From assembly GCA_019448385.1 (NCBI GenBank), contig JAGTXO010000001.1, forward strand, positions 1,488,001-1,552,000: DNA of 64,000 nt, given 5' to 3'. Origin of the DNA: Diacronema lutheri. Its lineage: Eukaryota; Haptophyta; Pavlovophyceae; Pavlovales; Pavlovaceae. The notes under the pieces are model-generated. The model saw only the letters and a program-made list of their open reading frames with translations, was not told the origin of the DNA and ran no database searches. This document shows positions 38,110-64,000 of the stretch, piece after piece; position 1 is the stretch's first letter; every line of letters begins with the position of its first letter. Position numbers and translations under genes: made by a program.

Positions 38110-38323
38110 GCTTTTCAAAAGGGTGTAGGGTGTTACTTAGTGTAGGATGGATCTATTCTCTAAGTATTTACATAGTGTAGGGTGTAGGATAAGTACGGTT
38201 ATGAAAGTCCCATAGGGGGAGAAGGAATGACGCTGTGACGGAAGAAGGAGTGACGTCGGGCCCAAATGTGGGGAGGGCTTGTTTTGCATCCTACACCCTA
38301 CACCCTACACCCTTTTAGAAAGC
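38110..38323. mobile_element. MITE-like element with telomere-like terminal inverted repeats
   Basis: 214-bp non-coding element. The left terminal repeat (38110-38133) and the inverted right one (38300-38323) share 22 of 24 bases; the perfect core is aaaagggtgtagggtgt. The inner part is AT-richer than surroundings. The gtgtaggg units resemble telomeric repeats: the right end has three in a row, and tgtagggtgtagg recurs internally at about 38175. No clear target-site duplication was found, and no transposase is encoded, so the class is open. Confidence 0.7.
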
Positions 38324-38499
38324 GGCGGCGCCTCGGAGCATGGCGGCTCGACAGCATGGCGCCTCGACAGCATGGCGTCGTCCAGCGTCACGCCGCGTCG
38401 TGGTCCTGCCGCTCCTCCGTGGCGCACGGATGGCGCTCCTCCGTGACGCAGCCGAACGACGCCGCGGCGTCACGGCCCGGGCGCAGTCGCCATCCTGGA

Positions 38500-43041: not shown

Positions 43042-43096
<55 letters not shown>

Positions 43097-43301
43097 CACT
43101 CTCCCTACCTTCTTCCTCCTTTCGCACCTCGCACGCGCACGCCGTCCGCTGCCCGCTGTCCGCGGCCCAAATTGCCTTGCGGAAGCCGAGCAGGCAGAGC
43201 CCTGCTTGGATGGCCCCAGCGCGCATCTTGTGGATGGCGACGCTGTGGGCGAGCACGGACGCTTAAATGTGACCAGTGGCGCGCACGTGCACGTGCGCTA
43301 A
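41619..43301 (+). CDS. USP-type ubiquitin hydrolase (C19), with one frame break
   Basis: Deubiquitinase-like gene. Exon 1 (MARARRSALSKFYVVGRQPV...) ends at a GTGAGA donor at 41709. The Cys box follows the next acceptor: AKNEGNACYTTSL, matching N.GNtCY..S..Q. It continues one frame over as MQSLFALNVLRAML. Next are a QQDA..F-like block (RTPQDAAEFFRLLLGRVPGL) and the His box MSGHLVAIVLRNEAWLPCDD then YN. An intron leads to IYNVPESDALAWASGASMLV. A last exon (EPCLDGPSAHLVDGDAVGE) would follow an intron from 43014 that holds the poly-C/(CA)n run. The shift inside the Cys box near 41886 is either a sequencing indel or real damage. Confidence 0.65.
43047..43094. repeat. Poly-C (36) followed by (AC)n
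   Basis: Thirty-six C then about six ac units, inside the presumed last intron of the USP gene. Confidence 0.95.
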
Positions 43302-43639
43302 CTGGACGTCGAGCGTGTGCGCCTTGTCCGCACGTGTGCACTTACGTGCGTCTGCGGCGATCTGCCCGGCGTAGTAGTCCGCGCGCGCGGGAACCGCGTC
43401 GGCAGTAGGAGCAGGATAACGTACTTGCGCCTGACGAGGACGGCGAGAAGTGCGGCTTTTCGCTCGGGGCCTACCATGCCGCCGAGGTTGGCGCTGGCGC
43501 GCGTGAGGCAGTCGGAGCGCGCTGGGCCCGGGTTGAAGGCCTCACCCCAGGGGACGGGAGGATTCAAGGCGCCGAGCCGCTGCGGGTGCGGCGGGAGGCC
43601 CCGGGCGGGTGTGCTAATGCGGCTCGATGGCCGCCTGCC

Positions 43640-43667
43640 GGGGGGGGGGGGGGGGGGGGGGGGGGGT

Positions 43668-43701
<34 letters not shown>
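43640..43701. repeat. Poly-G tract (27 G, T, 34 G)
   Basis: Longest homopolymer in the window, inside the LINE-like region; it reads as poly-Pro on the minus strand. Length is likely unreliable in the assembly. Confidence 0.95.
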
Positions 43702-44104
43702 CGTTGGGCCGCCCGCGGAAACGGAGGTGAGCGTGTGGGAGCGGCGCGCGTCGGCGCGCGCGGCTGGCGTGCAGCACGGATAAGTCTTGTGTGGACTTCG
43801 CGGGGCGGATCCCGGTGCAGGGATTGCCGACGTAGGCCGCGAGCGCGAGCAGGGCGGGGATGAAGACGGATGATGGGGTTGGGGCCAAGGCCGCCGCACC
43901 CGCAGCTATCACGGTGGCAGCGACCGCCACGGTCAGTGCGAGGCTCGCGTGGCCGCTGCGCGGGCAGCTCGCCCGCCAGGTCCAGGAGGGCCGGCCTGCG
44001 GCCTCAGTGCCCAGCGTTGGGCATGTCAGCGTCTGCGTCTGCGGGCCCGCCACTGCGATGGCGCTTTGAGCCTGGCGCACCAAAACGCAATCGGTCCGCC
44101 GATC

Positions 44105-44133
44105 GGGGGGGGGGGGGGGGGGGGGGGGGGGGG
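44105..44133. repeat. Poly-G tract (29 G)
   Basis: Second poly-G run in the LINE-like region. Confidence 0.95.
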
Positions 44134-45497
44134 CGAGGCGTGCGGGCTTGGGGTGGGCTCCGGGTGCCGGCGCTGTGCCAGCGGCGGGCTTGGTTGACGC
44201 CGTCTCGCCGGGGCCCTTGCGCCTTGCGGCGCGAGCGTCGCGGAGGGGCGTCGGCTGCGCTGGCTCCGCGTCGGCGGTGGCGTGGGGCAGGCTCTTGTGG
44301 AGGGCGGAGCGCTCGCGCACGAGTCGGTTGCCAAGGCGGGCTGTCTGCGTGCCGTTGGGCTGCGCTTGGGTAGGTAGGACCTGCGGCCTCGGAGGCGGGC
44401 GCGTTTTCGTGTTGGGCCAGGCGGCAGCGCGCACCGGCCGTGTTCGCGGCCGGCAGGCGGACGTCCGCAGCGGGGCGGAGAATGCAGGCGAAGCGCCTGC
44501 ATGAACGCGGTTCGCACCTGGCGGCCAGGCGATCACGAACCGTTGGGTCGCCCGGCTGTTTGGTGGAGCCGAGGGCAGCAAGGATAGCAAGCTTGGCCGC
44601 CTCATCGGTGACGAGCGGCACTGTTGCCCAGCTCTGTACCTCGAAGCCCTGGATGTGCAGGCGTCGGGGAAGTTCCCGGCAGCGTCGCCTGCGTCCGTCG
44701 AGAGGCGGACCGAAGTCGCGCCCGTGCCCCCGTTGGCGACACCGAGCTCTCGCTCGTTCACACCGGCCCGCCGACGCGGGCGCGTGGTGCGCGCGCGTTG
44801 GGTGCGTGTCTGCCTCGAGCAGCGTGCCCAGTCGCAGTGTGGGCGCGTGTCCGTCTGCCTCAAAACGCCACGTGGAGGGGAAGGCGCGGGGCGGGCTCGC
44901 CGAGGAGGTGCCGCCGCTCGCTGCCACCCGGCGCGGGCTCGGGGCAGCCGTCTTCGGGTGCCGCGCTCTTCGCGCCATGCACGAACGTTCCGCCGCGCTC
45001 GCAGCGCGCGAGCGCACACACAGAGCGCGCGGCGACCCCGGCGGGGGCAGTGCGTCCCGGTGGCACTCGCGGGCGCGCGCCTGGCCTGGGCGCAGCTTGG
45101 CGCGTTGCCGCCCGCGCAGCGAGCCGCCCGCGCGCCTCGCCGCGCGCGCGCTTCGTCGCACGCGTGCGCCCTGCATGCACGCGCACAGCGCGCGGCGGCT
45201 CGGCGCAGTGCAAGGCAGAGCGTGCTGCAACGGTTGCGAGGGCGCGCACGCGCGGCGCGGCGCGCCCCTGTGTGGTCGCCTGCGCGCGGCGCGTGGTCCG
45301 GACGCAGCTCGGTGGCGTGATGCCGTTCGTGCAACACAGTGCGCGTGAGAGCCGCACGTGCACACCTGCAGTGCAACGCGGCATTGCGCGCGTTGCGTGC
45401 GCGGAGCGCGGCTGGATGTGCCTGAGGTCGCGCAGCATGCCGCGCGCCGCGCGCTGTGCGGCGCAGCGAGTCGGCCATGCCCCTGGTCCTCGTCTCC

Positions 45498-45517
45498 GGG
45501 GGGGGGGGGGGGGGGGG
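45498..45517. repeat. Poly-G tract (20 G)
   Basis: Third poly-G run in the LINE-like region, followed by tttggtggtggtgg. Confidence 0.95.
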
Positions 45518-46041
45518 TTTGGTGGTGGTGGCAACCAGGATCCGCCAGCGCGTGGTGGGCGCCGTCCAACTCCCAACCAGGATGCGCCCCGTTCTTCCCC
45601 GACACTCTCCGTCCAAACCCGCCGCCCAGCCTGCCGCCGCACCCGCCGCCAACGCCGCCGCGCACCCATCCGCCGAGCTCACCGCGCGCGCGCTCGCGCT
45701 CACGCTGCGCGACGAGGCTGCGCAGGCCGGCGCGCGGCCGTGCAGAGCAGCGCAGGCCGGCGCGCGGCCGCGCGCGCGCGCTCACGTTGCGGCCGCGCAG
45801 CGAGCTTTCGCCGCGTCGCAGCCCCTCCGAGCAGCCACGATGCACGCCCCCGGAGGACGTTGGCCGCGCTCGGAGGCCGCGCTCGGGCGCGCAAAGAGAG
45901 GCGGCGCGGGCAAACGAGTAGGCTCGGCGCGCTGGCGGGTCCTTGTTGTGGGAGAGCGGGGCATTCTCCAGGGCATCATGTAAATTCTCCCAAGTATCAT
46001 CCGGGCCGCCATCCGGACACTGACGTGCCCACAGTCTGCAG

Positions 46042-49000
46042 ATGGAGGACTCCGTGAAGGACGCTTTGCGCGGCGGGCGGGGCGGCTCGGACAGTTTCTC
46101 GCTGGCCCTCAGCACCATTCTGTCGCCGGGAGATACCCACCCCCACGTGGTCCCATCCACTTGCCTCATCGCCCTGCTGCGTTACGCGGATTTCGGCACG
46201 AGCAGGGTTATGCTGGGCGACACGGGGTGCTCGCAGCATGCGCTCAAGGTGGCGCTGCGCAACCTGCGCAAAGCATGCGCGGATGCGGACCGGTTTGGGC
46301 AGGTGCTCGTGGTCGTGCTACCGTTCTGCCTCCGCGCGTCCAGCGGCCTCGCGCACTGGACGGCGGCGTACCTGCTCCTCGCGCCGCCCGCGCAGCGCGG
46401 CGCGCCGCCCGGCGCCGCGCTCGCCCTGCTCGCCGATTCGCGCACCTTGGGCAACGGCGAATCGGCGTACGCCACGGCGGCCGGCGTGCTCATCAAGAAG
46501 CTTGCGCAGCGCATCGGCAGAACAGCGCCGCCCATCGATGCCTTCAAGGCGCCCCCGCAGAGTGGGGCCGCGTGTTGCTTCGCCGCGGCAACAGTCGCGG
46601 CCGAGGTCGCGGCGAGCGCATCGACGCTCTACGGCCGCCGCGCGAATGTCCTTGTCGAGATCAAGAAGGCTTTGGACGCGCGCCTCGCGCGCCTCACGAC
46701 GGCCGCGTACGAGGAGACCCGCGCGCGCACGCTCCGCGCCGCCATCGGCGCTCTGCTCGGCGACCGCGCCAGGCGCTTCGGCCCGTTCACCCGCGAGGCC
46801 GCGCGGCTCGCCGAGGCCGCGCGGCTCGCCGAGGCGTGCGATGCCAGTGTCGGCGGATCCGCGCCCGACGGGCTGCTGCAGGCCGTCGAGGCGGCGCTGC
46901 GCGCGCCCGACGACCGCATCGCACGCACGGCCGCGCTCGACGCGCTCACGGGCGCTGCAGGCCGCGCGCTGTCGACGGCGGCCAGGCCGCGCGGCGCGGC
47001 GGCGCCAAGGCCGCCGTCGCGAGCGCCACCGCCGCGTGCGCCGCAGCGGCGCGCCGCCTCGGCGTGGGGGCCCCGACCATTCAGCCTCCTCGGCGGGGGC
47101 GAGGGCGACGGGGACGATGGCGACGCCACCACCGCTGACGACGGGGAGGGCGCGGAGGACGGGGACGACGACCTCGCGGGCGCGGCGGCTGCGGCGGTGG
47201 CGACGGGCACGGCGGCGACGAGCGCGGTGGCGGCGGGCGCGGCGCCAACCTCGCCGGCGGCGGCGGACGGCGGTGGCTCGGCGCCGCTCGAACGCCGCTG
47301 CGTCTACACTGCGCCTGATGAGGGCGACGCGGACGCGCGCGTGTACGACGCCAAGGACCCCGAGCAGCTAAAAGCGGGTAGGGCGCGGCTGCGGGCGAAC
47401 AGCGGGCGCGCGCCCGCCGTGGTCGACACGCTTTTCGCGCACGCGACGGGCACGATCGTCACGCGGCAGCGCACGGAGGGCGTGACCGGCGCGGGCATGC
47501 ACCACCTCGCCGCCCCGACGCAGGGCGCGGGGTACGGTACCGTCGTGCGGGCCGAGCTGGGCGAGCCCGGCTTCGCGGGGACGACACGGCACATGACGTC
47601 GGGCGTGGAGAACCAGCCGCGCGCGGTACGAGCGGCCGCGCGCGCGTACGCGCACGACGGCTGGGGCGGCGTGTACACTGCGCACGAGGACTTTGCCGCC
47701 TTCGAGGGCTTGCCGCGGCTCGCCGCGCCCGAATCGCTCGCGGCCATCGCCGGCGGGTCGGCGGACGCGGTGTTCTGCTGGCGGTCCGGCCGGTCCGTCA
47801 ACGGCGAGGTGACGACGGTTCACTTCAATGGCGACCGCGCCGCCGCCATCGACCACGCGCGGGCGCTGCGCGTCAGGCCCGATTGGCGCTCGCAGCCCAG
47901 GATCTACGAGGCGGCGTGCGGCGCGGAGGGCACGGTGCTGCTCGTGTGGGTCGTGCCCGACCGTCACAAAAACCCGCGGCTGGACTGGGCGCCGATTCTC
48001 GTCGTGATCCACCTGCCCGCCGACCCCGACTGGCTCGCGCGCGCCACGCCGGCGATCGCGAAGGCGCGGCGCGAGGTCGAGGACGGACGCGCGCGCGCGG
48101 AGGCGCGCGGCGTGCCGCAGCACCTCGCCTACACGCTGAGCCCACGCTTCCGAGGCACCGCGCCGCGCGGCGCCGCGCGCGTGCCGCCGCGCCTCGGCGC
48201 GAGCGACGCGCGCGAGGCGCGCGCGCTCGCGGCGCTCGAGTCGGCGCTCATGTTCGCGCCGGCCTGGCGGCGCGCGGTGCGCGCGGCGAGCCGCGCCCCC
48301 GGCAGTGGCGCCGCGGCCGTCGAGCGCGCGCTCGCGCGCCTGCACAACGCGCCCGAGCCCGATGACGAGAGCGCGCCCGAGTCGGCGCGCGTCGCGCCGC
48401 TCGCCGCCGCGCTCGAGCAGTCGGCGGGCTGGCCGGCGGGCACGGCGCGCATGGCGGCAAGCGTGACCAAGGGCCCCGGCGTCGGAGATGGCGCAGGTGG
48501 CGACGAAGCGATCAAGGTGGAGGAAACGGCGAAGACGAGCGGCGACGGCTGCACCGGCACGCCTCCTCTGCGCCCGGCCGCGCGCGCGGCCGGCGCGGCG
48601 GACGACGGAGGGGCGGCGGTCGTGGCGGGCGTCGAGGGCGAGCGCGACGCACTCGCCAAGACGGGTGCCGGCGGCTGCGACGACGACGCTCGCGAGCCGC
48701 TGTCGGCCGGCAAGCCCGGCGCACTCGCCGCCGCGGCGACCGTCGGGGGTTTCGGCGAGCTCGTCGGCAGCCTATGCGCGTGGCTGGCGCACGGCGCGGC
48801 TGGCGGCGCCATCGCGGCCATCTCCCCCGGGACGGCCGCGCGCGGAGCAAACGGCACGCCGCAGCGCGCCGAGCCGCCGGCCGCCGGCGATCCCGTCGCT
48901 CCGCACGCGCGCGTCGCCGCTGCGGCGCCCTTGGCGGGCAGCGCGGCGGCGCCGTCGTCGGACGCGCGCGACGCGCAGCGCGGCGTCGCGGGATTCGACG

Positions 49001-52000
49001 CGGCCGCGCACGCGCACGCGCGCGACGGCAGGCGGGCGGCACGGCGGATGCGCGAGCAAGAGGGGGCGGTGCACAGGGCCTTCCGCATGTCCCTCTGGCG
49101 CGACGCGACGTTTGCCGAGTTCGTTGAGAAGCTGCGCCCCGACGGCGGCGCGCAGCTGCTCGCGCGCGAGCCCACGCGGCGCGCGGCGGCGGTGCTGTGC
49201 GAGCTCGCGCGCGGCCGCGACGGCGCGAGCGGCGCGGCCGGGCTGCTGCACGAGATGAGAGCCGCCGATGCGCGCGCGCGCGAGGCCGCCAAAGCGGCGG
49301 CGGAGGCAGCGCGGCCTGCGCACGGGACGCTGCGCATCGTGGCAACCGTGGCGCTGGGCGGTGCGGTCTTCGCCGGCGTGTCAGCGCTGGTCGTTGCTTG
49401 CGCGGCGCGCACGGCGACCGGTGCGCTCTTTGGGGCCCGCCGCCCGCGGGCGGCCGCGCGCGGAGCCGACGACGCGCTCGGCGCGCCGCAGCGCGCCGAG
49501 CCGCCGCCCGCCGACAAGGGCAAGCGCAGGCGCGCCAGAGCCAACGACGACCCCGTCGACGCGGCGCGCAAGGCCGTGGGCAAGGCGGAGGGCAACTGCC
49601 GCAAGGCAGCCCGCCGGCTGCACCTCGCTGCACTGGGCGAGGAGGAGGCGCAGCAGCGCGTGCTCGACGCCGAGGCGGCGGAGCAGCTGGCGCGCTCGCG
49701 CGAGCCGGCCGGCGGCTGGGTAGGCAGCGCGCGCGCGCGCGCGCGCGCGCGCCCCGCCGCGCGCGCGCCCGTCGATTGGCGTGCGCGCAGCGCAGAACGG
49801 CGCGCCAGCTCCGTCACCCGCGCGCCGCCGCGCCCGTGCCCCTCGCGCGCAGGGGCGCCCTGCGGACCTGCGGCTGCAACAGGCGCACTTTGGCATGCGC
49901 GAAGATGCCGACGCGGATGTGCGCCGCGCGCACGAGGCGCTGCGCCGGGCGAGACAGGGTGTGGCGTGCGCCAAGGCCAGCGTGCGGCAGATGGAGGCGG
50001 CGTTGCTCAACGCGACGCGCTGCGCCACCGCGGTGCTCGCGCCGCGTGGCGTGCCGGAGGGTGACGAGCAGGCCGCGGCGAGAGAGCAGGCGGCGCTGGA
50101 CCGGGAGGCGCCGCCGGCCGCGCAACGCGCGGCGCCGACGGCGCGCTCGCCCTCGGAGCCGCCGTCCGAGTGGGGCCCGCCAGCGGTCGGCCGGCGCCCG
50201 ACGCCGCGTGCACTGTCGCACGCCGCGGGGCGCGGGGACGACAACCCGTTTGCGCCGCTCGCAACCGTCAGCGGCGATTGGTCGCCCACGCCGAGCTCGC
50301 GCTCGCCGTCCTCGCCGCCGCGGCAGCCGCCGTCCGACCGCCGCAGCGCGCAGCGTCGCAGCGCGCGCGCGCGGCCGCCGAGGCCGACCGTTTCGCCCGA
50401 GGACGCGCTCGCAGCCGAGCGCCAGGCGCGCGCGCTGTCGGAGCAGGCGGAGCAGAGGCGCGCCAAAAAGGCCGCCGCCAAGGCCGCGCGCCGCGCCGCG
50501 CGCGCCGCCGACAAGCGGACGGCGCGCGTCGTCCACGCGTGCGTAAGCGCCGCCTTGCGGCGCGTCTGCACGAGCGTCGCCACGGGCACGCCGCTCGCCG
50601 TGCTCCGCGAGCGCGCCGAGGGGCCGCGCGCGCCGAAGGCGGCGCCCGCGCCGCCACGCCGCGCAGCGGACGGCGGCCGCGCGCTCCGCCACGCGCGTAC
50701 GGCGGCCGCCGCGGCGGCGGAGCGCGAGGCGGCGGTGGCGGCCGACGCCGACGAGCGGTTCGAGCGGCAGCCCTCCGCCGCCCGGTTCGACGGCGGCGAT
50801 GGCGGCGGAGGCGGCCACGTCGAGGCGAGCGCGCGACCGCGCGCCGGCGAGGCCGGCGAGGCTGGCGCGCACGGCGCGCCTGGCGCAGCGGGGACCCCGG
50901 CGGCGTCGCTCGCGTCGCGCAGCCCGTGTGATGCGCGCCGCACGGCACGCCTCCCGCACGCACGCGCCGCAGCCACCTGCGCACGCAACGGCGGCTGGGG
51001 TGGCAACGTCGGCGGCGACGTGTGCGGCGATTGTTTCGGCGGCGGCGGCGTCCGTCGCGACGCCTGCGGCGGCGGCGACGCCACCTGCGGCTGCGGCGAT
51101 GGCGGCGTCGGTGCTGGCGCTGGCGAGGCCCCTGCACACGGTGCGCCGGCGCGCGCGACGGCGTCGCGCTTGCTGCGCTTGCTCGGCGCGCCACGCGCCG
51201 TGCTCGGTGCGATGGCGCACGCCGCGGCCGTGTTGGCGCGCGGCGTGGCCGCAGCCGTCGCTGGCGTGCGCGCCGCCGCGCGCGCCGTGCGGCGCGCGCG
51301 CCGCCGAGCGCCTCGCGCGCGCCGCACGGCTGCGCGGCGGGCTCGCGGCCCGCCGATGCGCGACGTCGACGGCGCCCTGCGGCCCTCGCCGTCCTGGTTG
51401 CGCACACGCCTCGTCTGCGGCCGGCGCCTCGCGCCTCTGCGCCGCGCGGGCGCGCGCCCGCCGCCCGCACACGCCGCGCCGAGTTCCCGCGCGCGCGCTG
51501 CGCAACCCGACAGCGACGCGCCGGCGTGCGCGCCGCGGCGCTCGGCGCCTGTCGGTGCGCCGCCGCGCGCGCGTGGCCTACGCGCGGCGCGCGCACGGCG
51601 CTTCCTCGACGTCGCCGGCCGCGCGGCGCGGAGCGCGCGCCTCGGCGCGCGCATCACGCGCCAGCGCACGCCGGGTTCGCCATCGGAGCCCTGCACGGCC
51701 GAGAGCGGCGACGGCGCGGGCGCCGGCGGCGTCGGCGCGGCGGCGCCTGGCGCGGCGACGATGCGCGCCACCGGCGCGCGCGCAGCGCGCGCTGCGGCGG
51801 CGGCGGTCGGTGGCGCCTCGCGTCTCGCGCGCCGCGCGATGGCAAGCGCCGCCGCCGCTGCCACCTCCATCGCCGGCGCTGCCGCCTCGACCGTCGCCGC
51901 CGCCGCCGTTGCCATCGGCGCGGCCGTCACGTCACCGGCGTTCGCCGCGGCGCGCGGCATGGCGGCCGCATGCGTCGCTGCCTGCGCCCGCCCCACCGCC

Positions 52001-54300
52001 GCGCAGGCGGCCGCGTCGCGCGCGCTCGGCGCGCTCTTCGTGCTCGTCGACGCGGCCGACGCGGCGGGCGACAGCGACGCCGCGCTCGGCGCGCTCGCGG
52101 CCGCGGTCGACGCGATGGAGCTGCGCCCGCCGCCGGCCTTTTGGCGCGCGGGCCGCGCCGCGGCGTACGCACCGCGTCCGCCGCCCCTCGACTCGGCGCG
52201 GCCGCGCTACAACCGGCGCGCGCGCGCACCTAGCCCTCCCGTCGCGGCCGCGCGGCGCAATCTAGCGCGCGCGGTGCGCGAGCTCACGCGCGCCGCGCGC
52301 GCTGAGCGCGAGCGCGCGCCGGCGCCGCGCGGCGCGCGCGGCGGCGTGCTCCACGCGCTGCGCGCGTCGCTCCCCGTGCACGCGCGCGTTGCGCTCGGCA
52401 CGGACGCGGAGCTGCGCGCGGACATCGCCGCGTTCGCGCGCGCGCGCCGCGAGCTGCACAGCCTCACCGACGCCGAGGTGGCGGCGCTCGCGCGCCCGGA
52501 CGGGCCGCCGCTGCCCGTGCGGCTCGCGTGCACGGCGGTCGCGCGCGCGCGCGGCGTGACCGTGCTGCTCGACATCGTGCCGCGCGGCGGCGGCGCGCCC
52601 GAGCGGCTCGTGTGCCGCGCCCGTCGCCGCGGCGCCGCCTCGCGCACGCCACGGCCGACAGCCGCCGTTATCGCGCGCGCGCCTCGCATAGCGGCGCGCG
52701 TTGGCCACACTGAGCCGGCGCGCGCGTGCGCGGGCGGATCGATCGGGGTCGCGCGCCTCCGTTCAGCGCGCCGCCGCTCTTGGCGTGGGGCGCGGCTCGA
52801 CGTGCACACCCGCGAGCGGCTGGCCACACCGGTGCCAGGCCACGTCGTGGCCTGCGCCGCCGCCTCGGCCATCGGCGCGTGCGTCGCTCGCGCGCGGCTT
52901 GGGCTTGCACGGCTGGCGCGCGCGTGGCCCTGCGCCTCCGCTCCACTGGCCACTGCTGCTGTCGCCTTCGCGCCTGCCGCCGACGGTGTTTTCTGCGCCC
53001 CGCTGGGCGCTCCTGCATCCGCCTTCGCGCCTGCCGCCGACGGTGTTTTCCCCGCCGCACTAGCCGCTGCTGCATCCGCCTTCGCGCCTGCCGCCGATTT
53101 TCCCGCCCCACTAGTTGCTCCTGCACTCGCCTCCGCGCCAGCCACCGACGGCGTTTTCCCCGCCCCACTAGTCGCTGCCGCTGTCGCGTCCGCGCCTGCC
53201 GCCGCGGGCGTGTCTTCCGCCCCACCAGCCATCGCCGCCGCGCCCGCCGCCAACGTGCGCACCGCCAACGTGCCCGTTGCCAACGAGGCTACCGCCACCG
53301 AACCAGCCGCCCTTGAGCTTCCCCTCCAACCCGCCAACTCGGCGCTGCTGGCGTGGGCGGGCGACGCGGCTGCGCGCCGGCTGGCCTCCGCCGCCGCGAG
53401 CGCCGGCCTCCCGCAGGCAGAGGTGGAGCGCATCGCCAGCGGCGACATGCTCGCCTCAACCGTCGACGCGTGCTGCGAGGTCGTGCTGCGCGTGCACGGG
53501 CAGGCCGGCGGCGGGCATGTCTGCCACGTGCCGCTCGCCGCGCAACCCGCGGTGTTCCAGGACGGCGCCGAGCGCGCCGCGCTGCTGCACCGCCTGCGCA
53601 GCGAGGCGACAACGCAGGCTGTCATCGGCGTGTGGAGCCCGTCGGACGAGCGCGGCGGCGCGGGCGGTGACGACGGCGCGCAGCTCGCCTCCGGCCATTT
53701 CACCGCGTTGCGCCTTGTGCGCGTCGCGCGCGCGGGCGAGCATCGCTACGACGCGGTGCTCGTCGACACGCTCGCGTCGCCCTGCAGGCAGGCGCTCATG
53801 CTCGCCAAGGCGATAACTGTCACGCTGCACGCGGCGGGTCTCGACATTTCGCGCGTGCGCCGCGCGCTGCTGCTCAACGAGGCGGCGCAGCGTGGCGCGA
53901 CGTGCGGCCTCGCGATAGTGGGCGCGCTCAACGACGCGCTCGCCGCGGCGGGCTGCTCGTCCGCGCCGCGCACGTTCAGCGTGGCGGACATGTACGCTGT
54001 CGGCGAGCGCCTCCGCGTCGCGCTGACCGGCGCGGCCAGCGATCGTGCGCCGGGCGGCGTCTGCGCGGTCACGAGCGCGGTGCGTGGCGGGGGCAGCCCC
54101 GATCGCGCCGAAACGCCGCCGCAGACGCGCGGCGCCAAGGCCGCCGCTGGCGTCACCGCCGCCGCCACCGCCGCCGCCACGCCGCCGCCGCCCGCGCTGG
54201 GCGCCGCCGCCGCCGCCACCGCCGCCGCCGCCGCTGCTGCCGCCGCCGTGGCCGCGCCGTCACCGCCGCCACCGCCGCCGCCGGCCGGCGACGAGGGCGA

Positions 54301-54399
<99 letters not shown>

Positions 54400-57300
54400 G
54401 CGCACGTTCTTGAAGCTCGCGCCCAGGGCGCGCGCGGCCGCCTCGGCGCGTGAGGCGTTGCGCGCCGCGTGTGCGCGTGCGGACGCGGCGGCGTCGTCAC
54501 ACGCGTCGGCGCCGCACGCGCCCGCCGGTGCGCGCCGCCGGCGGCGCGCGGGCGCAGGCGAGCTGGCGCTCGCGGCTGCGCGCGCGCTCGCCTCGACGGA
54601 GCACGGCGATTTGACGGACGACGCGCTCGAGGCCGCCGTCGAGCAGGAGCTGGGCGACGAGCGCGGCCAACTGCTGCTGTGCACGCGGGGCGCAGTGGCG
54701 CAAAGGCCCGCGCTTTGCCGGCTCCTGAAGCACGCGTGCGCGTCGGCGCGCGCGGCGAAGCGCGCGCAATTCACGGTGTTCGTCGTGCGCGCGGCCACGC
54801 GCGGCGAGCGGGGGGGCGCCGCCGCGAGGCGCGTGGACTCGGTGGTCGAGCTGTCGTGCGCGCTGCACGAGAAGGCGGGCGCGCTCGGCGGCCTCCAGAG
54901 CGTCTGTGTGCGTGGCTTCGCCCTCGAGCGCCGCCGGACACTCGACGCTGGCGCCGAGGCCGGCGCGTCCGCCATCGGCCAGGACGAGCAGGTCGAGGCA
55001 GAGGCGGGCGAGGCGTGCGTCGCCGGCGTGACGATGGCCAAGCAGCTGCGTCAGTTTGCCGAGCAAGCTGCCCGCGACGACGTGCTCTTCCACGTCGCCG
55101 TGTCCGAGGCCGACGCCCACGCCCGGCTGGCGCGCGTTGCGGGTGACGATGTCGGCGCGTACAGCGTCGTGCTCGCAGTCGCCGGGCTCGTCTGGCTGGC
55201 CAAGGCCGACGAGGTTGCGCCGGCGGCCGCCCAGTCCGCCGCCGTGCCGCCCGCCGCCCCGCCTGCTGCCGCCACGTCCGCCGACGCCGAGCGCGACGCC
55301 TCGCCTTCCGACCGCCTGCGCGCGCTGACGCTCGCCGTGCGAGTCGCGCTCGCGCGCGGCGTGCTGCGCCACCTCCTCGCCGACGCGTCGCCGGGCGCGT
55401 CCGCGACCGCTGGCGGTAGTTGCGCGACGCCCGTCGAGGCGGCCGCGTCCGACGCCGCGCCGCCCGCCACGGGCGTCGTGACGAGTGGCGTTGCGGCGGG
55501 CGCTGTGGCGGCCGCACCGGCTGCTGCGGGCGGGGCGATGGCGGGTGCATCGCCCATCGCGCGGCCGGCGAAGCGCGCGCGGCGCACGCTCACCGCCGCT
55601 CCAGCCGCCTCGGCCGTTGCGGCCGCTGGAGGCGCACGCGCTGGCGCACGCGGCGCGGCCGGCGCGCCTCGCGCGCGCGCCGCGCGCGCGCCGGCCGAGT
55701 ACGTCTGGCTTGCCATCGCGCGCCGGATGCTGGCGGCGCGACACGCGGCGGCCGCGGGCGGCGACTTTGTCGCGTCGTGCGTCGCCGCGATGCAGGCCGA
55801 GTACGGCGACGGCTGTGCCGTCGTCGTCGGCGACGCGCCTGGTGACGCCTTGGTCGAGGCTGCGGCGGCGGCGCTGCTCGAGGGCAAGCACGCGGCGGTG
55901 AGCCTCGGCTGCGTCGACCGGCCGGCGGTGCTCGTCGTGCAGCGCGCCGTGGACGCGCCCACGTCGCGCGTGCACGGGTGGTGCGCGCACGCGGCGGGCG
56001 CCGCCGAGTTTGACGAGGGCGCCGCGCGCGACGTGTTCAACGCGATCGTCGAGCGCGCGTGGGCGCTGCGTCCGGACCCGGCCGACGGCAGCCCGCCGCC
56101 CACGCGCACGTGGGAGGTCGAGCGCATCGCTGACGACGCGCCCGACCAGGCGGGCGTGGCCGCGCTGCGCGTGCTCTACGCGCTCGTCGCGGCGCACGGC
56201 CGCTACCGCTCGGCCGCCGCGCTCTCTGGCGCGCTCGCGCAGCTGCACGCGCCCGACGCCGCCGGCGCGCGCGCGGAGGTCGTCGCGGCGGCGTGCGCGG
56301 TGCCGCCCGGCGCGCGGCCGGGCGCCGCGCCGGCGGCCGCGCGGGACGACGCGAGGGAGCGCGCATGGGAGGGCGCTCGGATCGCCGCGCTCGCCGTCGG
56401 CGCGGACGCTGCGCGCAGGCGTGTCGCGCCCGTGCGCGCGCTCGTCGACGCGCTCGGCACGCCACCGACCTCGGCGATCACGGGCGGGCCGGCGGTGCGG
56501 CTCGCGGGCGCGGGCGACGGCGGCCACGGTGCACGGTGGGTGGGCGGGCAGGCGGCGACGCCCGCCGAGCAGCTGCCGAGGGAGCTGCTGCGCGCCTACC
56601 ACGAGGCGGTGCTGTGCGTCACGCCCGGCAGCCTCCAGCTCGACTCGGCGGCGCTCGACGCGGTCACGCGGCCGCGCGAAAACGACACGCTGGAAGGCCT
56701 CCTCGCGCGCGTCAGCTGGCAGTGCGGCACGAGGGCGAGCACGTGCGCCATGCTCGCCACGTTTTCCGAGCAGGCGGGCACCGGCTCGCGCGTCGCGCTC
56801 AAGGCCCTCCGCACGAGCTCCGACCTGGCCGGGCTGACGGCGGCTGCGGTCGGGCAGCAGGCGCCGCAGACGCCGCCGCCGCCGCTGCTCGTGATGCTCG
56901 GCCGCTGCCCCAGCCCGCTCGTCGGCGGCGGCCTCTTCCCGCCCGACCGCGCGACGGGCGAGCCGGCGGTGCACGCGGCGACGTCCGAGCTCGCCGTCGA
57001 GCTGCTGCGCGACGCGCGCGCGCTGGCCGGCACGGACGGGCGGCTCGTCGTGCTGTGCCTCGAGGCGTCCAACCCGCTCTGGTTCTGCCCCAAGGTGCGC
57101 GAGCTCGAGCTGCCGCGGACGCGGTCGGACGGCGTGCGCGCGTCCGGCTGCACCTGCCCTGCGACGTGCAGCGATGCGCGCGGCGCGGCGGGTGGCGCTG
57201 CCCGCGGCGCATCGACGCGGCCGGCGGCGCGCGCGATCAACAAGGCGGTGCTCGACCACTTCGTCGCGCTTTTCGGCCGCGAGGGCTTCGCGACCTTTGA

Positions 57301-60300
57301 GTTTGCGGGCGGCGGCGAGGCGAGCTGGCTGTGCGACAGCGCGGCCGGCAAGACGACCGTCGCGGCGTGCGCGTCGCTCCCGCCGCGCATGGGCGATGGG
57401 CAGCTGGCCATCCGGCGGCACACGCTCGGCACGGGCGCCGACGCGCCGGCGCACGCCGTCGTCTCGCTCCGCGTCGCGCACGTGAGCCACGCCATCCGCC
57501 GCGCGGCGGACGACGGCGGCGCGCGCGCCGAGCGGATGGCGCGCGCCGCGCGCGCGTTTTGCGATGTGGCGGCCGCGCTGCGCGTCGACGCGATCCTGGC
57601 GGAGGTGCCCGAGGACCGCCCGACGGGCACGCCCTTCCTTGGCGGGCTGCTCGAGTTTTGGAACAAACGCCACGGGAGCTCGACGGCGCCAGCCACGCTC
57701 GCGCTCGGAGACGTGCGCGAGGTGGCCAAGCGGACGGCCGACGCAGCGGCCGGCCGAGCGGACGAGGTCCCTGCGGCTGGCCGTCCGCAGGTCGCGGCGC
57801 GCGCGTGCGCTGGCGCGATTGGCGGCGGCGCGGGCGCGGCGGGCGCCTCGGACGCTGCGCCCCGTGCACTGGCGGGCGCGTCGGGTGCGCGCACGGACGG
57901 CGGCCCTGCCGACGCACCGCGCCAGCTGGAGAGCCGCTACGGCGAGGCGAGCAAGCTCGACCTACCCCAAGATTCCACTACGGGCTGCGTCCTCGACGCT
58001 CGCGAGGCCCAGGACCGCGCGCGCGTGCCTGCTGCGCCCGACGGCACAGCGCTGCGCCGCGTGCTCGACGCCGTCGGCGCGGGCGCGCCCGCGCAGCGCA
58101 GCCCGCGCTGGCACGACGAGCGATGGGAGGAGGTCACGGGCAGCAAGGTTGGCGACGTCGTGAACGACAACGCCGGCGTCGCGCACGAGACGCTCACCGA
58201 CGAGTACGTGCACCGGCGGCGGCGCGAGGTGCGGACCAAGGCGACGACCGCGGGCATCCTCGGCGAGGCCGTCGCGCTGCGCAAGCTGGCGGCCGCGTAC
58301 GGCATCACCGTCGTGTGCAACCTGCCGATGGTGCGTGCGGACCCGCACGACAAGAGCGCGCCGTTCGCCTTCTCGCCGGACGGGCTCGCCATCCTCCCCG
58401 AAGACAACGAGCAGGTCCTCGTCGAGGTGAAGACGCTCACCAAGGCGGACGCCAAGGCGCACGAGGACGGGCCGCCGCAGCCGCACCGCGATCAGCTGCA
58501 GCTCGGCATGCACGTCCTCGGCGTGCGCAAAGCGCTCTACGTGCAGTACCTCAGGCACGAGGACCGGATCGTCGTGCACGTCGTGACGCGCGGCGCCGGC
58601 TGGCTTGCATTCGCGCAGCCGAGGGTGCAGGCCTTCTGGGCGCGCGTCGTCGAGCGGCGCGCGCGGCTCGAGCGCGCGCGCGCCGACCACCCGGCTGCGA
58701 GCCGGCGGCACCGGCGGCAGCAGACGCCGGCCGGGCCGCCGCTCGTGCTCGCGCTGGACGGGCGCATCCCCGCCGCGCGCGCCGCCGCGCTGCACGCCGT
58801 CGCGCACGGCACCGCGAGCGCGGCGGCGGTGGCGGCGACGGCGGCGACGGGCGACGCGACGGCGTTGCAAGACGCGATCGCGGCGCTGCGCGCGCCCGTC
58901 GGCAATGCGGCGATCGACAGCGCAGCGCGTGCGGAGCGCGCGGCCGTCGAGCGGGCGATCGCGTACCTCGGGCAGCCGGCAGGCGACGCCGCCGCCCGCG
59001 GCACGGCCGAGGCGGCCGAGGAGGAGAGGACGGTCGACGCCGACATCTGCGCGTTGCTGCACCAGCTCGGCGCGAGCGTGGCGCACGTGCACGTCGAGGA
59101 CGCGGATTGCGTCACGCGTGAGCACTGGGGCGGGGCGGTGCTCGCTGCAGCGGGCGACCCGTCGAGCGCCCCCGCCATTTCGAGCGTCATCGTCGCGCAC
59201 ATCGTGCGGCTCGCCGGCTTTGGCGTCGAGCTCCCGCAGTCGATTCGCGTCGCCCCCAGCACGGCCGACTGGCACGAGGGCTGGCTCGACGTGCAGTGCG
59301 TGCTGCTGCGCACGCGCCGGCGCGGGCGGCGCGACGACGACTTTGTGGCCGTCGTCAGGCGCGGTGGGCGCTGGTTTGCGTGCGAGCCCGGCCGCGCGCG
59401 GCGGCTGCAGTGGCGGTCGGTCCTGCGCCGCGCGCGCGGCGGCGTCGACGGGACCGGCGAGGAGGCGTTCGCGGTCGTCTACGTGCGGCGCGGCGACGCG
59501 GCCGGCGACGCGGCTGGCGACGCGCAGGCCGAACGGGCGCGCGGCGGGCGCGCGCGCAGGCGCACGCGCGGCGGCACGCGCAAGCGCAAGCGCGGCGCCT
59601 CCGCCGGGCTCGAGGCGGCCGCGCCCGCCGGCGCGCCGGCTGCCGCGCCCGCCGGCGCGCCGGCGGGCGCTGCTCACCGCCCGCCCGCCATGCGCGCGAC
59701 GGTCGCCGCGCGCACCACGCGCTCTGTGACCGACGCGCGGCACTCGGCGCCTGCCGCCACGGTTGCACCTGTCTTCGACTGGCGCGCCGGCCGCCCGCCC
59801 CCCGCCGCTCGAGCCCGCCACCCGCGGCCGCGTGGGCGCGCGCCACCGGGCAAGGCCTGGGACAGCGTCTCGGGTGCGTGGGCGGACAAGCCGACTGGTG
59901 CTGCCGTCGCCGGCGCGCCGCCGCCGCTGCCGCCCGCCGCCGCGCCGCCGCCCACCGCCGCGCCGCCGCCCGCCGCCGCGCCGCCGCCCGCCGTCGCGCC
60001 GCCGCCCGCCGCCGCGCCGCCGCCGCCGCCGCCACCGGCGGCGCTCAACCGCTGGCAGCACGTCGGCGCGGGCGGCAGCGCGGCGGGCCGGCGGCTCGCG
60101 GCCATCGCACGGCGGCAGCGCGGCGTGCGCGCGCCGCCGCCCACCGCGCGCTTCCTCGCTACGCTGCCGCCACCGCCACGCGACGGCCTCGCGCGCACGA
60201 GCAAGCAGGCGCGCGCGAGGCGCAACGCGGACGGACGGCCGGCGCACGCGCGCGCGGCCAACGCGCGCGCCTTCTACCGCGGCGTGGAGCTCGGCGTGCA

Positions 60301-63300
60301 CGCGACGCGCGCCATCGTCGACGCGCGCCACGCCGACCTGCCGCAGGCCGTCTTCGTGGCGGAGGCGCGGGCGATCGTCGCGCGCTCCGCCGGCGGCGGC
60401 GCGCTGCTCGCGCCGGACGACGTGCGCGACCTGTGCGACGCGCAGACGGACGCCGATCGCGCTGCGATCTGGGCGTCGGTGGGCGCGCACGAGGCGTCGC
60501 GCATCTTCGCGCTCGTCACGCGCAACGCGAGCTTGGCGGGCGCGGCGCTGCTCGTGCTGCACACGCCGGCGGGCGCGCCGGCGCGCGCGCTCGGGCTCGT
60601 GGCGACGCGCTCGCGCGCGCCGTCGACGGGCGCGCCGCGCGACGCGCACAGGGCGCTGGTGCAGCGGTTGGACGTGCTGATGGACGCGATCGCCGCGGCG
60701 CGAGGCGCGTCGCCGCTCGAGCTCGAGCTCGCGCTCGCGCCCGAGCCGCAGAGCGCGTGCAACGCGCGTGCGGCCGCGCTGCTCTGCCTGCAGGCCGTCG
60801 CGGACGCGAGCGACCGTCCCGCCGCTGAGGACGCGCTGGCCGCGCTCGACGACGCGCGCGGCATCGACCGGCACTGCCACGCCGTCCGGCAGCAGATCGA
60901 GGCGAAGCTCGCGTGGCGGCGCGCCGACGGCGCCGTCGGCGTTGACGGCGCCGACGGCGCGCCCGCGCTCGCGCCTGCCGCCGCACCGCCGGCGTGCGCG
61001 CCGGCGCACGCTGCCGGCGAGGCGGCAGTCGACCAGGCGATCGTCACGCGGGTGCGCGACGCGCTGCGCGCGTGGGCGACGACTGGCACCGCGCCCAGCG
61101 CGGCGGCGCTCGACGACGCCTGCGCCGCGTACACGGCGCGCGCACGCGCGCGCAAGGACGCGCGCACGGCGCTGGGCCCGACGCGCGCGGCCGAGCTGCT
61201 CGCCGCGGCCGCGCGCTGCGGAGCCGACGGGGCGGATGCCGCGCGCGCGCTGCTCGGCGGCACGCCGCGCCTGCTCGTCGTGCTCCTCTGCGTGCCCGTC
61301 GCCGCGCCGTCCGGCGAGCCGCCGCGCCCGGTCGGGCTGCTCGTCGCCGACCGGCCGACGGACGACTCGCGCCCGGCCGCGCTCGTGCGCTACGACTTTG
61401 CGCCGCTCGACGCGGACGTGGCCGCCGCGGTCGGCGCGCATGCCGTCGCGCTGGCCAGTGCGATCTGGCCGCTGCTCGCGGCCGAGGGGGAGCCGCAGCC
61501 ATCGCCCGTCGTGCGCTCGCAGCCGCGCGGCGGCGACGATGGCGCGCGTGCGCTCGCAACGTTCGCGTGCCTCGACGCGCTGATGACCGCCAGCGTCGGC
61601 GCGCACGGCCTCGCGGGCGGCGCGGGCATGCTGCCCGCGCTGGTCGCGCGAGGCGCCGCGGCCGCCCAGCGCGAGCGGCAGCTGCGCGCGGCCGCCGAGA
61701 GGCTGGGCGGCACGGTCGCTGGGTGGCCGGACACGGGCGCGAGCGCGGCGGGCGCGAGCGTCGACGAGGAGGCGCGCACGTACGAGGTCGAGGCGGTCGT
61801 CGACGAGCGCCGCAAGGCGGGCAAGAAGTTGACGTTCGAGTTCCGGATCAGGTGGCGGGGCTACGACGAGAGCGCCGACACGTGGGAGCCTGAGGCCAAC
61901 GTGAGCAGCGACCTCGTCGCCCAGTTCCGCAAGACGCGCGACGAGCAGAAGCGGCGCGCGGGCGGATCGGGCAGCGGCAGCGGCGGCGCGGGCGCGGCGT
62001 CGGCATTGGCGTCGGCGCCGCTTCGCGCGCACGGCGTGTCGGGCGCCGCGGGCAAGCGCGCCGCGGCGGGTGCTGCCGCGAGCGCGCGCGACGCCGCGGG
62101 CGCGCGCGCGCCGAGCGTTCCCCGCGCGCGCGGCGTCGAGCGCGCGCGCGTGGACGAGCCCGCTGCGCCGAGCGCGCGCGCCGCCGGCGGCGCGACGGCG
62201 CGCACGCGCGGCAGCGTGCTCCCGGGCTTCGTGGTCAAGCGCTCGACGCTCAACGCGGGGCCGCAGGCGGTGACGGCGCAGCCCGGTGCGCGGAAGGAGC
62301 TGCGGCGCATCGCGGCGGCCGTGCACAGGCTCACGACACAGGCGTACCGCGCCATCAACAAGGTGGTGCGCGACGAGGCTGCGGTGGCGAGCGCGCAGGC
62401 CGTCGGCGCGGCGTCGGGCGGCCCGTCGACAAGCGTGCACACGTCGACCACGATGGACAAGGGAACCGTCCGTGCGATCTTCTCGGCGATCGGCTGGCAC
62501 AAGGACGTGAGCACGTACGGTGCAGCGGCCCGAGGCAAGCCCGCCGAGCAAGCCGCCGCGCAGACCAAGGCGGCGACGGCGCGCGCCGTCGGCGAGATGG
62601 CCGACGGCGTCCAGCCCGTCTGCGCGGTGGGCCTCGATAAGATCCTCGCGGAGGAGGCGACGCAGGTGTCCACCGCGTGCCTGATGCACCCATCGCGCGT
62701 CGTGAACGGGCTGCTCCGCGACGTCGTCCGCGCGGCAGTCGAGCGCGACGAGGCGCTCGTCGCGCTGCCCGAGATGCAGCGAAACGCGCGCGTGCGCGAG
62801 CTGTGCGAGCGGCTGCTGCGCGGCGACGTGGAGGGCGCGCGCGTCGGCTGCCCCGCCGCGCTCGACCGCCACCTGCCCGACATGGTCCTCCACAAGATCA
62901 ACTACGAGTGCGCGCCCACGAAAAGGTGGAACTACGACCGGCACACGACGCGCTACTTCCTCGTGCAGATCCGCAACCTGCAGCACGTGGCCAAGGGGCA
63001 GGCGCTGCTCTGCCGGCTCGCGCGCCTGTACACGCAGCTCACCGACCGGCCGCCGCGGTATAATGTGGCGCCGCTGCGCACGCACAATGTGCGCGCGAGG
63101 CGCGGCTGCCGCTACCGCCGCCGAGCGCCCAAGCGCGCGCGCCGCCGCCGTGCGCGCCGCCCCGCGGCCAGGTTGGTCACGCGCCCGCGCGCTCGCGCGC
63201 CGCGCGCTGCGCGCAGGTGCCGCGCAACGTGCGCCTCACCGCGAACGCCATCTGGGAGACGCTCCCGGACGACGAGCGCAAGGAGCTGCGCGCGCGGCTC

Positions 63301-64000
63301 AAGGCGCTGGACCTGCGCGACCACGATGGCGAGCCGATCAAGTGGACCGCTCAAGGCGGCTCGTTTGTCCCGCCAATGTCCGACGTGCGCGTCAGGTACG
63401 CGGTCTTCGCGACGCGCTTCGACATCTCCAACCGCGTCTTCGACTACGCCGGGCGCGAGCGGCCGCCGGCCGATCTGCCGTGGCACGCGCGGCGCTCGTG
63501 GGTGGGCCTCGCGCCGCTGCCGCGCGTGCCGCTCCCGGGCCGGCAGCCCGTCACGTCGGTGGTGACGGATGGCGTCGCCGTGCACGCCGTCGCGACCGTC
63601 CTCGTGCCGAAGGCGCAGGCGCCGGCCGGCAGCTCGAGCGTCCTGCACCGCTGGCGCCGGCCGGACGGGCGCATCGCCGTCGCGCTCGGCTCCGAGCTGC
63701 GGCGGGCGATCGACATCGAGGAGGCGGTCGTCGTCGCGGCCGACCCGAACATGGGCAACATCACCACCTACTCTGCGCACGTCGGGCGGGCGGCCGTCTG
63801 GCGGCAGTTCACGCAGCGCGCGCGCGCGCGCGCCGCGGGCTTTGCGCGCGAGACGGCCAAGACCAACGCGGCGCGGCGGCGCGTGCGCACCGACGGGCGC
63901 GGCGAGGAGTTCAGCGTGGAGGCGGACGAGGCGCGGCTTGGCGAGGCGCACAGCGCCAAGGTGCTCGACGCGGGCAAATACATCGCCTTCCACCGCGAGA
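46042..64000 (+). CDS. Giant multidomain protein: Ulp1-like protease, YqaJ exonuclease, chromodomain, Fanzor-like nuclease (3' end outside window)
   Basis: Proposed exons are 46042-49719, 49853-63064 and 63217 to beyond the edge, at least about 5,890 codons. Both introns are GT...GCGCAG and phase 0 (GGW to GRPADLRLQQ; RPPRYN to VPRNVRLTA). Order by predicted residue: Ulp1-like C48 domain (about 15-190), an unknown ordered region (about 420-720), one transmembrane helix (RIVATVALGGAVFAGVSALV, about 1098-1117), Arg/Ala/Pro-rich linker, second Ulp1-like domain (about 2400-2600), poly-Ala, several decayed protease-like segments, YqaJ nuclease (about 3970-4155), chromodomain (about 5200-5255) and Fanzor-like C-terminus (from about 5375). 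It may in truth be two or more genes or a polyprotein, since low-complexity stretches could hide introns or starts. No DDE transposase was recognised. The left flank is LINE debris. Confidence 0.6.
46084..46611 (+). other. Ulp1-like (C48) protease domain A
   Basis: First domain of the giant protein. Catalytic pattern: His-Trp in SGLAHWTAAYLLL (His105), Asp in ALLADSRTL (Asp132), Gln in PPQSGAACCFAAAT (Gln173) and Cys178/179. Spacing fits SUMO/NEDD8-protease folds. Cys is preceded by AA rather than DCG, so activity is plausible but not certain. Confidence 0.6.
47300..48160 (+). other. Unrecognised ordered region of the giant protein
   Basis: This stretch has balanced composition amid low complexity: VYDAKDPEQLKAGRARLRAN, VVDTLFAHATGTIVTRQRTE, ENQPRAVRAAARAYAHDGWG, FCWRSGRSVNGEVTTVHFNG and LDWAPILVVIHLPADPDWLA. 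Alternating strands and helices suggest a globular domain. No family is recognised. Confidence 0.4.
53395..53965 (+). other. Ulp1-like (C48) protease domain B
   Basis: RIASGDMLASTVDACCEVVL resembles the 'L.d..I..yl.ll' opening of Ulp1 domains. SGHFTALRLVRVA supplies the His (Phe replaces Trp), YDAVLVDTLASP the Asp, and LLNEAAQRGATCGLAIVGAL the Gln and the Cys-Gly of Q...CG. All four catalytic positions can be aligned by eye. Confidence 0.6.
54301..54399. repeat. (GCC)33 repeat encoding poly-Ala
   Basis: An uninterrupted trinucleotide array within the giant coding unit, reading as about 33-36 alanines between GDEGDA and RTFLKLAP. Nearby poly-Ala/Pro codons are also gcc/ccg-rich. A run this long in humans would be in the disease range for poly-Ala genes. 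Confidence 0.9.
58090..58640 (+). other. YqaJ-like PD-(D/E)XK exonuclease domain
   Basis: Resembles lambda-exonuclease/YqaJ-type recombination nucleases. The opening is QRSPRWHDERWEEVTGSKVG (the 'QRS..W...R....TaS...' start). A glutamate is in TAGILGEAVALRKL (GE.....L). The PD motif is in FAFSPDGLAIL, and the ExK motif in VLVEVKTLTKADAK. The downstream HRDQLQLGMHVLGVRKALYV gives the Q..QLQlqM motif that is diagnostic of YqaJ. All catalytic residues appear intact. Confidence 0.8.
61770..61936 (+). other. Chromodomain
   Basis: TYEVEAVVDERRKAGKKLTF then EFRIRWRGYDESADTWEPEA and NVSSDLVAQFRK. The Y-E-V-E, the KWkGY-like RWRGY, and the D-TWEPE-N residues match methyl-lysine-binding chromodomains. 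In mobile elements, chromodomains steer integration or binding to marked chromatin. Confidence 0.9.
62300..64000 (+). other. Fanzor/TnpB-like nuclease region, cut by the window edge
   Basis: The segment after the chromodomain resembles eukaryotic Fanzor proteins, TnpB relatives that are RNA-guided nucleases. Features are a helical N-part (HKINYECAPTKRWNYDR, LARLYTQLTDRPPRYN), then the block before the RuvC core with QPVTSVVTDGVAVHAVAT (compare 'TDGvsvs'). The RuvC-I-like motif follows, EEAVVVAADPNMGNITTYSA (Asp in DPNMGN, compare 'vgvDPG..n'). The downstream helix is WRQFTQRARARAAGFARETA, and EARLGEAHSAKVLDAGKYIA matches the post-RuvC-I helices of Fanzors. RuvC-II, the zinc ribbon and RuvC-III would lie beyond base 64000, so nuclease integrity cannot be judged. 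Confidence 0.55.

Follow-up and report, generated by a model that had tools for sequence, protein, structure and literature searches.

A likely mobile 29-kb repeat of Diacronema lutheri with a giant reading frame that ends in a Fanzor-type nuclease domain

TnpB-carrying elements of the IS200/IS605 group lack inverted repeats and target duplications, have a short target motif on their left and carry the nuclease gene at their right end. IS4EU and KDZ transposons have a DDE transposase, inverted repeats and a target duplication. Here, we describe a 29.1-kb repeat element in the haptophyte Diacronema lutheri, detected in a stretch of 64,000 nucleotides (C9:1488001-1552000; hereafter the window) of a genome assembly of 43,492,796 bases in 103 contigs. 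The element carries a giant reading frame that, as supported by a profile match, ends in a Fanzor-type nuclease domain. According to published work, cited here and below from excerpts, the biological function of Fanzors is little known (PMC10711439). In Chlamydomonas, the Fanzor elements CRe-1, 2, and 3 are considered to be most likely non-autonomous Helitrons of the Helitron2 type (PMC3627910). The D. lutheri genome paper reports a long-read assembly of 43,502,671 bp in 103 contigs; the repeats named in the excerpted main text are long terminal repeat (LTR) elements and long interspersed nuclear elements (LINE), and word starts for transpos-, Fanzor, YqaJ, and Ulp1 are absent from it (PMC8379373).

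We propose that the repeat is a giant Helitron-like element in which the Fanzor would cut empty sites and a linked exonuclease would help to copy the element in by repair, an account whose chances of being right or wrong we consider evenly balanced. A Fanzor encoded in a single frame together with a recombination-type exonuclease and a chromatin reader bears on the role that Fanzors have in their carrier elements. The initial annotation, a reading of positions 46042-64000 from the letters alone, had suggested that the element is possibly undescribed, and this agrees with the open-licence PMC literature searched, in which we found no element that joins a Fanzor with YqaJ, Ulp1, a chromodomain, or an exonuclease, and no such element for D. 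lutheri.

The giant reading frame and its domains

Guanine-plus-cytosine content by codon phase outlines one plus-strand coding unit at 46042-64944 that comprises about 6,230 codons and extends over 18.9 kb including two phase-0 introns. The signal lies in frame 1 at 46.0-49.7 kb, in frame 2 at 49.8-63.1 kb, and again in frame 1 at 63.2-64.9 kb, and lasting frame switches occur only at places that fit GT-AG introns. Five windows of 450 bases (starting at 49501, 50701, 52801, 53101, and 55501) favour another frame or strand, at a low contrast of 0.08-0.18. Exon 1 (46042..49719; 1,226 codons) is followed by an intron of 73 nt (49720..49792; GT-AG, phase 0), where the frame switches and for which the acceptor given is the best candidate, and then by exon 2 (49793..63088; 4,432 codons), which is delimited by the codon-phase signal. 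The second intron (63089..63216; 128 nt, GT-AG, phase 0) leads into exon 3 (63217..64944, of which 63217..64000 lies in the window). Exons 1 and 2 of the window copy contain no stops, and the frame closes at 64944, 944 bases past the window edge (L009:944). The predicted junction of intron 2 is spanned exactly (RTHN/VPRNVRL) by P0007, an annotated D. lutheri protein. Collectively, these observations uphold the single coding unit with two small phase-0 introns described in the initial annotation, and the open giant frame is firmly established.

P0007 itself (C69, KFE25_006464) comprises about 100 Fanzor residues across intron 2 fused to SAM domains and is thus a host chimera with element sequence. 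Three further relatives (P0004, P0005, and P0006) start where exon 3 starts, which hints that intron 2 may be conserved among relatives. In addition, a EukProt entry for Pavlova lutheri of 425 amino acids (P0008) is a near letter-for-letter match to the frame just upstream of the exonuclease.

The C-terminal half of the putative Fanzor is encoded by exon 3. In the C50 copy (L012:1240-2964), this exon matches the Pfam family Cas12f1-like_TNB (PF07282) with an E value of 1.9e-6 and 28.4 bits, above the cut-off of 26.3. This profile supports the conclusion, drawn from sequence, that the giant frame ends in a Fanzor-type nuclease domain with catalytic residues. NF040570 yielded E 0.024 and 13.9 bits against a cut-off of 100, a five-sequence profile searched against PDB ranked a Cas12f1 chain (9i8y) first with E 0.0082, and PADLOC placed weak matches to Cas12f (E 0.007-0.02) after one to Csx1 (E 0.003). 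The N-terminal half (62249..63088, plus strand), which was assigned from its position and its spliced continuation in P0007, has no profile match in Pfam. An AlphaFold2 model of part of exon 3 had a predicted local distance difference test score (pLDDT) of 47, too low to support a fold comparison. The Fanzor-like nuclease of the initial annotation, which had depended on sequence past the right edge of the window, held up, with its RuvC and zinc-finger end appearing (PF07282) once the sequence downstream was added.

The residues of interest in exon 3 are D176 (the RuvC-I aspartate, with its codon at 63742), E358-x6-C365, and RD418. A motif described for Fanzor and TnpB proteins, D-X(125,275)-[TS][TS]-X-X-[C4 zinc finger]-X(5,50)-RD (PMC3627910), is present, with 184 residues from D176 to TS, followed by TSMHC, CPAC, and 8 residues to RD. 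The displaced RuvC-II glutamate reported for Fanzors, E-x6-C (PMC10711439), is found as E358-x6-C365 and also occurs in P0004. Exon 3 departs from the full TnpB pattern of the same source in that the distance from D to E is 182 rather than 120-160 residues, DPN replaces DPG, the first zinc pair is C-x13-C and not CxxC, and 9 rather than 4-8 residues separate the last cysteine from the aspartate (PMC10711439).

A homologue search, which scored the 7,992 candidates that shared most words with the query, returned among the matches listed P0003 (94% identity), P0004 (46%), P0005 (40%), and P0006 (41%), together with the chimeric P0007. P0003 and P0004 retain the complete C-terminal motif set, and P0005 and P0006 are fragments that stop before it. 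Counterparts of D176, E358, and RD418 are all retained in P0004. The domain resembles described Fanzors in its RuvC aspartate, in a displaced glutamate six residues before the first zinc cysteine, in its zinc-finger cysteines, and in its RD motif; moreover, the nuclease adjoins the right end of the element, and the motif at the left junction sits where the target-adjacent motifs (TAMs) of Fanzors lie. It differs from them in its first zinc pair and in that it is predicted to be the C-terminal part of a 6,230-codon frame that also includes an exonuclease and a chromodomain.

The YqaJ/RecE-type exonuclease domain (58085..58660, plus strand) is matched over about 190 residues by the RecE-like PHROG family phrog_434 with E 1.4e-17. 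Weaker matches were to TIGR03033, a lambda-exonuclease family (E 7.7e-6, 26.1 bits, well below the cut-off of 68.05), and to the Pfam YqaJ family PF09588 (E 0.0011, 19.6 bits, slightly below the cut-off of 22), and a PDB sequence search with the exonuclease piece alone returned no nuclease. The profile match is the point of likeness to phage RecE/YqaJ exonucleases, whereas the domain here lies inside a giant eukaryotic frame and no annealing partner was identified. By eye, a stretch at about 57.0-57.6 kb looked possibly endonuclease-like, and we do not put it forward as a domain. The chromodomain of HP1/CDYL type (61781..61933, plus strand) matches PF00385 above the cut-off with E 5.6e-13, and its nearest solved relatives in PDB are CDYL (4.3e-10) and HP1 (7.6e-10). 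In the PDB alignment it has Y, W, and Y at the places of the HP1/CDYL aromatic cage, which we take to be the cage positions.

The initial annotation had joined four motif sets in this frame. Profiles bear out the exonuclease, the chromodomain, and the Fanzor, while the Ulp1-like proteases appear as motif spacing only. Pfam, NCBIfam, and PHROG models gave no support for such proteases, two PDB sequence searches found none, and none of 7,995 candidates scored for homology to the first 264 residues gave support either. Two H..D..Q..C spacings occur in the giant frame, at 46348/46555 (in exon 1) and at 53687/53882, compared to a mean of 0.09 in shuffled sequences, of which 2 in 500 reach two; the pattern behind these counts was composed after the sequence had been viewed. 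A single-sequence fold of the putative protease part had a pLDDT of 40 and likewise lent no support. We therefore treat the Ulp1 identity of these stretches as a lead only.

Comparison of copies suggests how well the frame is kept. Exons 1 and 2 are free of stops in three other long copies read (C50, C46, and C42), where indels are of 3 or 6 bases only, and exon 3 is open in two of the three, with a 2-base insertion and an early stop in C46. Between the window copy and that of C38, no stop arose in any of the 3,794 codons compared, although small indels are numerous in the latter at 54.1-54.3 kb and a few more occur at 63.35 kb, as they also do in C27. Over the parts compared, the ratio of nonsynonymous to synonymous substitution rates (dN/dS) was 0.73, 0.77, and 0.96 for the three more diverged copies (C38, C27, and C9, respectively), and the corresponding ratio of nonsynonymous to synonymous differences per site (pN/pS) in the C-terminal half of the Fanzor was 0.44, 0.65, and 0.83. 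At most, these values suggest purifying selection on the giant frame.

Extent and copies of the element

Comparison of copies and alignment of their ends place the repeat element at 36238..65351 on the plus strand (36238..64000 inside the window; its end, at L009:1351, lies beyond the window edge). The segment flagged earlier, at 46042-64000, thus covers the rightmost two thirds of the repeat, whose full length is 29.1 kb. In genome searches that scored the best 40 candidates of 465 for a 2,001-base probe (60000-62000), of 275 for the left end, and of 280 for the right end, such that copy counts are lower bounds, at least 40 places match the full probe at 99-100% identity, at least 40 match the left end at 96-100%, and at least 40 match the right end at 99-100%. 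Two extra short matches, one at 71% in the probe search and one partial match in the left-end search, were not counted as copies. The right edge is sharp at 65351 in all four copies compared (C50, C46, C42, and C38), and the left edge is sharp at 36238 in C50, C42, and C38; the C46 copy begins to diverge from that of the window inside the element, at 38511, and no left end could be found for it. With a pairing limit of 45 kb, which leaves out a left/right pair on C69 that is 66 kb apart, a same-strand right end could be assigned to 21 of the 40 left ends listed. The lengths of these paired copies are 29,060-29,339 bp (15 copies), 21,434-21,488 bp (five), and 26,215 bp (one).

Collectively, these findings indicate that the 29-kb repeat is likely a mobile element with many near-identical copies, and they support the large mobile element of the initial annotation, in that repeat copies exist and the ends are defined. 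An assembly artefact or segmental duplication could be suspected from one pair of C46 copies that has a common flank and resembles a segmental duplication. In the other flanks read, however, sequences differ while the ends are exact, apart from copies that share a repeat termed X, and the assembly is based on long reads (PMC8379373); we find this explanation hardly credible. Repeat X, whose 3' end is GTAAGCGTCGTTAGTATA, occurs in the window at about 11.9 and about 35.5 kb and was counted in 345 exact 17-mer copies (174 + 171; reversed control, 0).

In the 21-kb type, as read in C4 and C38, a different sequence of about 2.4 kb takes the place of the part at about 43.05-53.32 kb. The N-terminal part of the giant frame seems to be exchanged between the long and the 21-kb types. 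Divergence from C38 drops sharply past 55.2 kb, which gives the copies the look of mosaics. The 2.4-kb replacement segment (L070:7118-9548) shows a coding signal of its own.

The repeat might instead be the remnant of an integrated large DNA virus, since algal giant viruses are known to have exonucleases, PIF1 helicases, Fanzors, and protease-like domains, and YqaJ-type nucleases as well as Ulp1-like proteases occur in giant viruses. Fanzors have been described in Emiliania and Phaeocystis viruses (PMC3627910). The two introns and the discrete ends of the 21 paired copies speak against such an origin, as do the frames scanned, in which there was no capsid, polymerase, or packaging gene, and two viral-contig scans, sensitive to close relatives only, that found none. 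We thus regard a viral origin as very improbable.

Element ends and the Helitron link

A broken helicase gene of the PIF1/Helitron type lies in the left arm (38447..39549, plus strand), with pieces in two frames. PF05970 matches it with E 6.5e-19 (38447-39214) and E 2.7e-23 (38254-39642), and helicase pieces extend across 38.4-40.1 kb in more than one frame. Two other copies, on C46 and C85 (L073 and L071), have about 1.1-1.2 kb of extra sequence 5' of the helicase (window positions 38345-38511), also with a change of frame; this segment, with a start MAAIDLRAF..., has no Pfam family above cut-off. The stretch ahead of the helicase Walker motif shows 55.6% identity over 81 amino acids (E 5e-9) with the part of a Helitron on C63 that follows Rep. 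That Helitron has Rep, which sets it apart from the element, and its locus (C63:35738-36019, L029) is the sole Helitron_like_N match in the genome (PF14214, E 8.3e-23). The C63 gene appears decayed, and ankyrin-like repeats could be made out by eye after it. None of the end motifs of the element was found in the 11 kb read there.

The element therefore has two features of Helitrons, namely a PIF1-type helicase, albeit broken, and no target duplication that could be seen. The IS4EU and KDZ parallels drawn in the initial annotation do not fit, as neither inverted repeats nor a target duplication were seen at the ends and a DDE transposase was absent from the frames scanned (some short frames lay outside the scan), and the Helitron group is a closer parallel than either.

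The conserved left end GGCGCGGTCCGGGC (36246..36259, plus strand), as defined by end alignments, is directly preceded by the motif CTATATAC (36238..36245, plus strand), a candidate TAM that is probably target-derived. Among the 40 left ends listed, the 8 bases ahead of GGCGCGG are CTATATAC in 15 and CTATATAG in 13, such that 28 of 40 have CTATATA[C/G]; seven of the remaining 12 are one base off, and TATA is present in 35 overall. Within the window, CTATATAS is unique on either strand to the left junction. The last left base is G in 19, C in 18, A in two, and T in one. Of 27 right ends, 25 retain CATCTATAC; of the other two, one has a transition and one stops at a contig end. Because the last left base varies between copies while the right end stays constant, the left motif would appear to be target sequence and the right end to belong to the element, which suggests an arrangement like that of the TAMs of TnpB systems. 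Left flanks were read in 17 stretches; L077, in which the wrong place had been located, was dropped, and L073 was not counted, its flank being the same as that of C46-a.

No target duplication beyond TATA was seen by eye in the flanks of paired copies, and no inverted repeats were seen at the element ends. All four traits of IS200/IS605 elements outlined above are thus matched, while the element differs from them in its introns and fused domains and in that no Y1 transposase was found. The Chlamydomonas CRe-1, 2, and 3 elements share with it an algal host, a presumed non-autonomy, a high copy number, insertion beside a short fixed motif, and, where their 5' end is complete, the lack of a target duplication (PMC3627910). 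They differ in that their motif is TTTT rather than CTATATA[C/G], and the element here has a giant multidomain frame and no clear asymmetric inverted repeats.

Ends of this kind might also be produced by a tyrosine recombinase, as in Crypton-like elements, with TATAC-like direct repeats arising when a circle recombines into TATA targets. Both the left CTATATA[C/G] and the right CTATAC contain TATA, and neither inverted repeats nor target duplications were seen, as this explanation would have it. No integrase was found in the frames scanned, however, and PF12012 had no match in the genome, which is no evidence of absence given that 14 control genomes were silent too. We consider a Crypton-like origin improbable.

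Proposed spread of the element

A stretch of 407 nt separates the Fanzor stop from the right end. Relative to the window copy, C38 and C27 have the same 8 differences in it, C9 has 3, and each of the recent copies has 0 or 1, and positions 88-342 are unchanged in all six copies. For the last 260 nt, four of 200 shuffles reach as good a fold (z -2.26). The stretch is compatible with a structured RNA terminating at the edge of the element, although gene conversion between copies could also have kept it invariant. The right flanks compared are different sequences in different copies, and therefore each copy would have its own predicted guide.

These observations can be assembled into the Helitron-like account proposed above. 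The element, in which no Rep was found, would be moved in trans by a Helitron-type Rep. The 407-nt stretch would act as the scaffold of a guide RNA with a guide read from the right flank, and TATATA would serve as the TAM. The Fanzor would then cut the empty site under RNA guidance; resection of the break would fall to the RecE-like exonuclease linked to it, and the gap would be filled by recombination with a copy that bears the element. The chromodomain may keep the protein on methylated chromatin. A further version, in which a single polypeptide would form an RNA-guided homing machine (Fanzor cutting at TATATA with a flank guide, RecE-type resection, and a chromodomain anchor) and recombination would replace the transposase, is conceivable and we put it forward only tentatively. 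A culturable alga with near-identical copies, exact ends, a predicted guide per copy, and a candidate TAM makes for readily testable predictions. If true, an RNA-guided cutter and a resection enzyme would here be paired by nature, a combination relevant to genome editing.

Several observations weigh against the Helitron-like account. Rep (PF14214) is absent from the element, its sole match in a six-frame scan of the genome being that on C63, outside the element; no other transposase was found within the element, as far as scanned; the helicase gene is broken; and the Helitron termini 5'-TC and CTRR-3' are absent from the element ends. Since Rep was not found in the element and its end structure does not agree, the best reading of the sequence is that the element is Helitron-like and not a Helitron. 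In addition, the best candidate for an asymmetric inverted repeat was no better than shuffles (64-131 of 300 were equal), the end hairpins folded as DNA were unremarkable (z -1.31 and -0.89), and the last 160 nt have an ordinary fold (z -1.32, with 22 of 200 shuffles as good). Seven of the 40 left ends listed adjoin the 3' end of repeat X, and CTATATAS is missing at that point from five X copies read that do not carry the element, an argument against a left motif derived purely from the target. Finally, three recent copies have dN/dS of 1.25-1.64, on 17-24 changes, and selection on the giant frame is difficult to judge.

Some of these points would be expected if the giant frame were passenger cargo, with machinery acting in trans to move the element, the frame including the Fanzor having no part in its spread or serving only to keep copies, and the exonuclease and Fanzor acting independently. 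That no transposase was found in the element and that dN/dS is close to or exceeds 1 for several pairs of copies are consistent with this, as is the description of CRe-1, 2, and 3 as most likely non-autonomous Helitrons (PMC3627910). On the other hand, the 18.9-kb coding unit is open in two of three other copies read, and the catalytic residues are retained in a relative of 46% identity. We consider passenger cargo to be rather unlikely and retain the Helitron-like account with an active Fanzor.

Perfect palindromes lie close to both ends of the element: GTACGACCCGGGTCGTAC, of 18 bp, at 36285..36302 (neither strand assigned) near the left end, and AAGGACGTCCTT at L009:1270-1281 near the right end. 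Elsewhere in the left arm, minus-strand stretches at 36791..37823 show some codon-phase signal in a broken frame, with no family found in the two pieces scanned, and the C-terminal remnant of a ubiquitin hydrolase (UCH) lies at 42437..42556 on the plus strand (PF00443, E 4.3e-5, 23.7 bits, just under the cut-off of 23.9).

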